This document shows positions 13,895-14,994 of a stretch of DNA of 64,000 nucleotides, piece by piece (the first letter of the stretch is position 1; every line of letters starts with the position of its first letter). The DNA is taken from positions 2,294,001 through 2,358,000 of the forward strand of contig NZ_CP034998.1 in NCBI RefSeq assembly GCF_002531755.2. The letters are read 5' to 3'. This DNA is from Rhizobium acidisoli (GTDB lineage Bacteria; Pseudomonadota; Alphaproteobacteria; Rhizobiales; Rhizobiaceae). A program made the position numbers and the translations under genes. Under the pieces are notes generated by a model. It saw nothing but the letters and a program-made list of their open reading frames with translations. It did no database searches and was not told the origin of the DNA.

Positions 13895-13918
13895 TGTACG
13901 TTGCCGTTGCTGTATAAT
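13890..13918 (+). promoter_or_regulatory. Bridge-RNA promoter, completed in the excised circle
   Basis: A consensus -10 box TATAAT sits at 13913-13918. In the integrated copy the -35 position holds ATCCTT. If the ends join as a circle through the CT core, the same position becomes TTGCTT with a 17-base spacer, giving a better promoter. This follows the known IS110 behaviour of promoter formation at the junction; the exact elements are my inference. Confidence 0.55.
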
Positions 13919-14994
13919 GCGGCTGTGCGGCGGGGATGCGTGTCATCCTAGGGTTTTGAACTCGCGCCTCAGCGAGCATCTCCGTCGCCATGTCTTCGCT
14001 CGAACGGTTGGTTGGGCCTTGAGCCCGCGTTGCAAGGAGGAGCACCCCATGCATGCCCCCAGAACTTTCATGGTCGGTATCGATGTCTCGAAGGCCCATC
14101 TCGACGTGGCCGTCGAAGGCAAACGCACCGTTGTCCGCTTCGACAATGATGCAGCAGGCCGAGCCGCACTCGCGGCGGCGGTGGCCGGCGCAGAGCTTGT
14201 TGTCGTCGAGGCCACCGGCGGTTACGAGATGGCGACCGTCAGGGCGCTGATGGCCGCCGATAGTCCGGTCGCCGTCGTCAATCCCCGCCAGATCCGCGAT
14301 TTCGCCAGGGCCAGCGGCCGGCTGGCCAAGACCGATCAGGTCGATGCCCGCGTCATTCTCCACTTCGCCAGAGCGATGCGGCCGGCACAGATCCCCCATA
14401 TCGACGACGGCCGCATCGCGCTTGCTGCCCTCGTCACCCGTCGCCGCCAGCTCATCGACATGGCAGTCGCCGAGAAGAACCGCCTCGAACATGCCCCGCA
14501 AGCCGTCGCCGTGCTGATCGGCGAGACACTCGCCGCCCTCAAGGCCCAGCTCGCCCGCGTCGATGCCGCCATCGCGCTCGCCATCGAGGCCGAGCCCGAC
14601 ATGGCCGCACGCCGCGACCTGCTGCTGACCGTGCCCGGCATCGGCGAGGTCGGCGCCGCCGTGCTCATCGCCGAACTGCCCGAACTCGGCGGCATCGACG
14701 ACAAGAAACTCGCCGCCCTCGTCGGCGTCGCACCGATGGCCCACGACAGCGGCGCCTGGCGTGGCCAGCGCCACATCGCCGGCGGCCGCGCCACCGTCCG
14801 ATGCGCCCTCTACATGGCAACGCTCTCGGCCATCCGCTGCAGCCCGGCCATCAAGGCCTTCTACAAAAGGCTGCGCGACGCCGGTAAACCGCCCAAGGTC
14901 GCCCTCGTCGCCGCCATGCGAAAACTCATCATCATGATCAACACTATCCTCAAAAGACACACACCCTGGAGCGAGCCGCAACAACACGGTTGCT
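13895..14994 (+). mobile_element. IS110-family insertion sequence (about 1.1 kb)
   Basis: The element has no terminal inverted repeats and contains one DEDD transposase preceded by about 154 bases of non-coding left end and followed by almost no right end, the layout of the IS110 subgroup (bridge-RNA side upstream). CT occurs at both junctions (13893-13894 and 14993-14994). Joining the flanks across it restores a rhizobial palindrome, CCTCATC-CT-GAGGTGCCCC. Boundaries were inferred from this reconstruction and from the transposase stop overlapping the right junction. It lies between two host genes and breaks neither. Confidence 0.8.
13925..14043 (+). ncRNA. Predicted IS110 bridge RNA with target- and donor-binding loops
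   Basis: Target loop: stem GATGC/GCATC (13935-13939 with 13976-13980) encloses TCATCCT (13943-13949), identical to the left insertion flank, a hairpin GGGTT-TTG-AACTC, and GCGCCTCAG (13964-13972), complementary to the right flank CTGAGGTGC with one G-T wobble. Donor loop: stem GCTC/GAGC (13998-14001 with 14040-14043) encloses ACGGTTG (14004-14010), identical to the element's right end, a GGGC/GCCC hairpin, and TTGCAAG (14030-14036), mostly complementary to CTTGTAC at the element's left end. This is the two-loop guide plan known for IS621. The transcript ends are estimates. Confidence 0.75.

Follow-up and report, generated by a model that had tools for sequence, protein, structure and literature searches.

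An IS110-group element of Rhizobium acidisoli inserted in a REP-like repeat and a predicted bridge RNA in its left end

An insertion element of the IS110 group lies on the plus strand of a 64,000-nucleotide stretch of the Rhizobium acidisoli genome (contig NZ_CP034998.1, positions 2,294,001 to 2,358,000; hereafter the window, to which positions refer), and the question raised by this locus is whether its insertion site was chosen by an RNA encoded in the element or in some other way. We favour a recently mobile and intact IS110-group element with a bridge RNA encoded in its left end, and we put the probability of this reading at roughly 0.94. The element extends from CT core to CT core (1100 bp plus the second CT), and the exact cut position within the CT core is not distinguishable from the sequence. 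The order within it is CT core, a leader of 154 bases, a transposase of 315 aa, the right end ACGGTTG and CT core. The host genome comprises 7.5 Mb in 5 contigs, and the named relatives with at least 71% identity were all Rhizobium. The element and its target are as follows.

13888..13894, + strand: left target and core, TCATC-CT (sequence and junction counts)
13893..14994, + strand: IS110-group element (three copies in its own genome, the same boundaries in relatives, an uninterrupted orthologous site)
14049..14996, + strand: IS110 transposase/recombinase, 315 aa, with its stop TGA formed by core T 14994 and target GA 14995-14996 (Pfam, PDB matches and motifs)
14993..15001, + strand: core and right target, CT-GAGGTGC, which begins the right part of the REP-like repeat (sequence, copies, genome sites and junctions)

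The transposase scored above the cut-off for the Pfam families PF01548 and PF02371. Its best sequence match in the PDB was ISCro4 (9t56, E 3e-39), and IS621 was matched at E 4.5e-38. Conserved motifs were found at GIDVSK (D12), EATGGY (E54), KTDQVDAR (D96, D99) and HDSGAW (S234), and by analogy with the family D12, E54, D96/D99 and S234 would be the catalytic residues. Pfam, the motifs and the IS621 and ISCro4 matches together describe a recombinase with a DEDD RuvC-like and a C-terminal serine domain, as is usual in the IS110 group. Further traits of that group were seen in the non-coding left end of 154 bases (core to ATG) as against a right end with no non-coding part, in two internal loops carrying target and donor guides by sequence comparison, and in core-directed insertion with no duplication past the core (three empty orthologous sites with CT only). 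One trait of the IS1111 group, a guide RNA in the downstream end, was absent: the guides lie upstream and the right end has no non-coding part.

Three copies of the element were found in its own genome. The copy at C1:188427-189542 was identical to the window copy over 1102 bases at a different site, which argues for recent movement. The copy at C3:560060-561205 was 99% identical and contained one in-frame TGA, so that its frame ended after 37 codons. Further copies occurred in relatives of the same genus, several of which were truncated. That the window copy is dead or cross-mobilised, with real anatomy in an element that no longer moves, is quite unlikely: the decayed third copy and the truncated relatives would suit such a history, whereas the identical copies at two sites and the intact frame and catalytic motifs in the sequence speak against it. 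The alternative of a recently mobile element is preferred here.

The other copies, when aligned, were found in the same repeat as the window copy and not at unrelated sites, with one clearly off-consensus site, CCTCAAC/CTGAGGGGCC (L079/L154). The latter occurs in two strains, and the right end of L079 is altered (ACTGTTG). Junctions of same-genus copies were counted after equal flanks had been merged (15 bases on the left, 30 on the right), and the element end was required to align; L073 was excluded from the left count because its left end was not aligned. The 32 distinct left junctions read TCATC in 24 cases, TCACC in 5, and TTATC, TCAAC and CTCAT in 1 each. All 30 distinct right junctions began with GAGG (22 GAGGT, 7 GAGGC and 1 GAGGG). 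The uninterrupted exact target TCATCCTGAGGYGC was present at 35 sites of the own genome, against 0 for a reversed-pattern control. The target is situated within an imperfect palindromic repeat, which reads CTCATCCTGAGG...CCTCGAAGGACGAG in several copies, and judged by its sequence the target repeat is REP-like.

To find uninterrupted sites, we looked for the window copy's left flank in 61 genomes, including the own genome, and took 12 loci, 11 of them from relatives. Three relatives (L157, L158 and L159) carried an empty orthologous site, with flanks of 90-92% that were contiguous and exactly CT between them; these sites read TCATCCTGAGGCG. The left-flank match in the remaining 8 relatives ended before the insertion point and was uninformative. 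A CT core at both junctions, as had been proposed from the sequence, was confirmed by the sequence itself and by the three empty sites with CT alone between the flanks. Left-end-only remnants consisting of the first 80 to 103 bases were also seen in the same repeat (L144 from 576, L127 and L125), and these could be deletion scars or guide-only pieces. To the right of the insertion, DUF1501 and DUF1800 genes are adjacent at window 15194-18005 (-); to its left lies an open frame of 195 aa at window 13165-13752 (+) with no Pfam match.

The leader holds the following features of the predicted bridge RNA and of transposase expression.

13913..13918, + strand: candidate -10 box TATAAT (sequence; first two bases invariant and the others variable in alignment A1)
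13928..13987, + strand: predicted bridge RNA, target-binding module, whose outer stem joins 13928-13939 to 13976-13987 (energy consensus and stem comparison)
13943..13949, + strand: left target guide (LTG) TCATCCT (sequence and flank comparison)
13964..13972, + strand: right target guide (RTG) GCGCCTCAG (sequence, flank comparison and junctions)
13973..13974, + strand: target-loop handshake guide CG (sequence and leader counts; positions taken from IS621)
13998..14043, + strand: donor-binding module, whose outer stem joins 13998-14001 to 14040-14043 and whose inner hairpin joins 14014-14017 to 14023-14026 (assigned manually on the model of IS621)
14004..14010, + strand: left donor guide (LDG) ACGGTTG, equal to the right end 14986-14992 (sequence and aligned leaders)
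14030..14036, + strand: right donor guide (RDG) TTGCAAG, pairing with the left end 13893-13899 (sequence and aligned leaders)
14034..14040, + strand: candidate ribosome-binding site AAGGAGG of the transposase (inference from the sequence)
14037..14038, + strand: donor-loop handshake guide GA (sequence and leader counts; positions taken from IS621)

The sequence-only reading had named four guide segments in this leader and their partners, and all four were recovered as described. TCATCCT at 13943-13949 is the same as the left flank at 13888-13894, and GCGCCTCAG at 13964-13972 pairs with the right flank CTGAGGTGC (14993-15001) at 8 positions plus one G:T. On the donor side, ACGGTTG at 14004-14010 is the same as the right end at 14986-14992, and TTGCAAG at 14030-14036 forms 5 pairs and 1 wobble, with 1 mismatch, with the left end CTTGTAC at 13893-13899. 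When the whole leader as far as the donor guide was scanned for the best LTG/RTG pair, the window element's own flanks scored 13/14. Compared with 4000 random CT-centred sites drawn from the window this corresponds to p=0.0005, and none of 15 flank pairs of other elements equalled the score. The G of the RTG opposite the seventh base of CTGAGGY pairs with C, or with T as a wobble, and the targets have both. An RTG A/G that tracks a target T/C was considered and not claimed: the cases are too few, and the 21 rows are compatible with wobble pairing (11 A-T, 6 G-T and 2 G-C) but also include 1 A-C in L112 and 1 G-G.

The proposal that the leader folds as two loops was upheld in part. Both modules were present in the minimum-energy fold of 13925-14048 and comparison supported them, but the folding energy of the left end showed no excess over shuffled sequences (z=0.13) and was for that reason rejected as evidence for a bridge RNA. 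The energy consensus of 17 leaders drew the target module and folded the donor half differently; the two modules were assigned manually on the model of IS621. An Rfam search at a permissive threshold gave no match in the left end, and two matches elsewhere were far below gathering scores. Across the 17 distinct leaders of the window clade the structure was paired in 98.5% of cells, as compared with 34-49% in slid controls. Covariation within this clade was not above controls (1 both-sided pair, a level matched by 38 to 64 of 500 shuffles), and a slide of +2 gave 3 both-sided pairs, more than the true register; taken by itself it did not serve as proof.

Leaders of a rhizobial sister clade could be added, as 10 of these and 13 of the window clade aligned in register. 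In this two-clade alignment 87.6% of cells were paired, where slid controls reached 58% at most. Both-sided changes were found in 38 cells against 16.4 on shuffling; a replacement of U-A by C-G, for example, is seen in both the target stem and the donor stem. Three measures exceeded the shuffles (paired cells, cells with both-sided change and the covariation score) and two of the five did not (both-sided pairs, 6 against 5.3; further pair types, 15 against 16.1). Much of this two-clade covariation signal is one ancestral difference between the two clades. In the sister clade alone, 8 of the 50 predicted pairs had changed on both sides, and the covariation term was slightly unfavourable. Stem covariation, whose absence would have counted against the predicted stems, was clear between clades and was hardly seen inside the clade. 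The main support for the bridge-RNA reading is comparative and comes from sequences.

Diverged relatives aimed at other targets were used to ask whether guides follow flanks. We examined 51 loci for ends and found both ends in 26. L045 and L048 (the same places as L083 and L098) and L090, L100 and L106 (contig end or N) were dropped from the guide test. The 21 copies that remained represent 16 elements at 43-49% protein identity, among them the rhizobial sister clade as well as elements from Xenorhabdus and environmental genomes. The RTG start was constrained to lie 15-39 bases after the LTG. The null consisted of 4000 random sites for 7 of the 22 copies and of 600 for 15, all taken from the window, which is unlike some of the hosts in composition. 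The LDG served to locate the outgroup right ends, so outgroup donor guides are no independent evidence.

With the window copy included, the RTG at the homologous place of the leader matched its own right target at 7/7 bases in 19 of 22 copies; the exceptions were the window and L036 (6/7) and L028 (5/7). Full matching covered 8 of 11 distinct right targets, namely CTACGAA, CTGAGCT, CTACTTA, CTAACCC, CTCATTA, CTCTCCC, CTCCCCC and CTCTGCC. Guide-flank agreement was significant at p<=0.03 in 19/22 copies, window included, with 11 different right targets; the test failed in L037, L084 and L098 (p 0.053 to 0.085), where the LTG matched at 4/7. The flanks of other elements scored equally (1 to 6 of 15) in 13/22 copies, mostly of the sister clade, whose flanks closely resemble each other. 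Guide-target covariation of the same kind over thousands of elements is described by Durrant et al. (PMC11208160). The anatomy, the repeated use of a single target, the uninterrupted orthologous site and this agreement of guides with flanks across diverged relatives are direct observations. They support the proposal of IS621 logic in a rhizobial element aimed at a rhizobial repeat: the guides match the repeat, and the guides of relatives mostly follow their own flanks.

These relatives also bear on two other explanations of the left-end matches. If the transposase protein alone recognised the REP-like repeat or its palindromic fold, the matches would be remnants or chance. All clade copies use a single repeat, so the clade alone cannot separate recognition by protein from recognition by RNA, and the missing folding-energy signal also agrees with a protein reader; we nevertheless hold this to be highly improbable, since in diverged elements homologous left-end segments change with the flanks (RTG 7/7 for 8/11 right targets), and since GGGAGAG goes with CTCTCCC and GGCAGAG with CTCTGCC among otherwise similar elements. 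Least credible of all is that a piece of the target repeat was captured by homology-driven insertion or drift and never used as a guide: TCATCCT literally copies the flank, yet the guides are opposite in sense (one identical, one complementary) with a hairpin between them as in IS621, the likeness ends at the LTG edge (TG before TCATCCT, CC in the target), and the empty sites show clean insertion.

The sister clade (L083-L086, L088-L091, L098-L106) is aimed at another palindromic repeat, CT-CTCCCC, and its guide changes track target changes: the target CTCTCCC occurs with the guide GGGAGAG and the target CTCTGCC with the guide GGCAGAG. The latter pairing was found in full in L091 and to the extent readable in L106, in elements that are otherwise similar. 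With L050 included, this clade (~45% identity) resembles the window element in layout, in leaders that align in register and in the CT core. Its target in most copies is palindromic CT-CTCCCC...GGGGAG, and it differs in its target and donor guides and in a stop codon located within the element. With such a clade on another repeat, guides, targets and stems can be compared from sequence alone.

Under the bridge-RNA reading, the RNA expression, circle, promoter and strand exchange are modelled on IS621. The element would be excised as a circle joined via one CT core, and the circle junction would probably form a promoter; the RE/LE junction of the predicted circle places TTGCTT 17 bases upstream of TATAAT, which is compatible with a junction promoter. 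This promoter may drive an RNA of ~120 nt and then the transposase. Loop 1 of the RNA would pair with the REP-like repeat TCATC-CT-GAGG(T/C)GC and loop 2 with the RE-CT-LE junction of the circle, and the DEDD/Ser recombinase would exchange strands at CT, so that insertion duplicates nothing of the target except the core.

Handshake guides, as described in PMC11208158, are the two bases after the RTG and the two after the RDG, each of which pairs with the other DNA. These bases had not figured in the sequence-only reading. In the window element 4/4 handshake bases fitted, one as a wobble: the CG after the RTG faces donor TG, with one C:G pair and one G:T wobble. CA, which pairs there with no wobble, was present in 11 of 17 aligned leaders, and GA after the RDG, opposite target TC, in 17 of 17. 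A misfit was seen where left junctions end in ACC and not ATC (5/32). In the sister clade the first base after the RTG was C in 10/10 leaders, as donor G requires, and the second was the G required by donor C in just 2/10.

The AAGGAGG at 14034-14040, likely the ribosome-binding site of the transposase on its sequence, shares bases with the RDG, with the handshake guide and with the donor stem, so that the same letters would have to act as guide RNA and as translation signal. The G bases of AAGGAGG were paired in 5/5 folds, including that of a transcript lacking the upstream modules; a donor stem acting as a switch that hides the ribosome site can therefore not be claimed, as the pairing is largely local. 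No paper with both 'bridge RNA' and 'Shine-Dalgarno' was among the best 10 of 30 matches listed.

The mechanism, CT core, left-end RNA, junction promoter and REP targeting are described as established for IS621 and relatives (PMC11208160, PMC11208158), and a paper of the same month described a programmable seekRNA for IS110/IS1111 elements (PMC11187229). The window element resembles IS621 of E. coli in the DEDD/Ser recombinase, the left-end bridge RNA, two guide loops, the CT core, a REP target and the handshake positions. It differs in the REP sequence and in a shorter leader (154 bases from core to ATG); the window element also has no coding stop of its own. At the protein level it is like ISCro4 (PDB 9t56), the best PDB sequence match and an IS110-type recombinase. 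ISRm19 is similar by its description, an IS110-family element of the rhizobial host Sinorhizobium meliloti with 4/4 copies in REPs, published in 2006 (PMC1525189). The novelty seen in a rhizobial element with a rhizobial repeat was thus overestimated: REP targeting by a rhizobial IS110 element is in print (PMC1525189), and IS621 is itself reported to target REPs (PMC11208160).

The window element is a further IS110/bridge-RNA member with a mechanism that is known already, and its unusual trait is a borrowed stop codon. Bridge-RNA logic can be tested cleanly on this natural case: a single genome offers 35 free exact targets and 3 occupied ones. The compact overlap, with a candidate ribosome site in the donor module and a stop from the target, leads to two testable regulatory ideas. 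If active, the protein would extend the set of bridge recombinases by a short one of 315 aa.

Within the element the transposase frame contains no stop, and TGA 14994-14996 consists of core T and target GA. Read from ATG, 21 of 25 full-length clade copies used a target-supplied TGA after 313-315 codons. The other four were L003, broken after 37 codons, and L022, L079 and L153, frame-shifted near or before the end and reaching a stop 109 to 346 bases beyond the element. The outgroup stop was inside the element in all 17 copies counted (18 bases ahead of the core in 15 copies, 21 bases ahead in 2), with L098, L099 and L102-L104 left out as further copies and L100 added. A target-supplied stop looks like a derived state in the clade of the window element. 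Target-supplied stop codons in IS elements received no mention in the titles and abstract beginnings of the literature matches listed. A stop codon provided by the target is also a feature of IS870, so the phenomenon itself is probably known already.

A speculative idea, which we consider rather unlikely, is that the guide RNA also sets the end of its own protein. The guide-chosen CT-GA would supply TGA, so that the circle would give a tailed and the inserted copy an untailed recombinase. The tail would then be a built-in marker of state, and the target would also be restricted to one starting with GA. In the 21 target-stop copies, read-through of the predicted circle gave tails of 7 residues in 13, of 11 in 5 and of 21 in 2, and in L154 no stop was reached within 60 codons. 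The tail LYVAVAV was predicted in 12/21 of these copies, 11 of which end at a TAA inside the TATA box.
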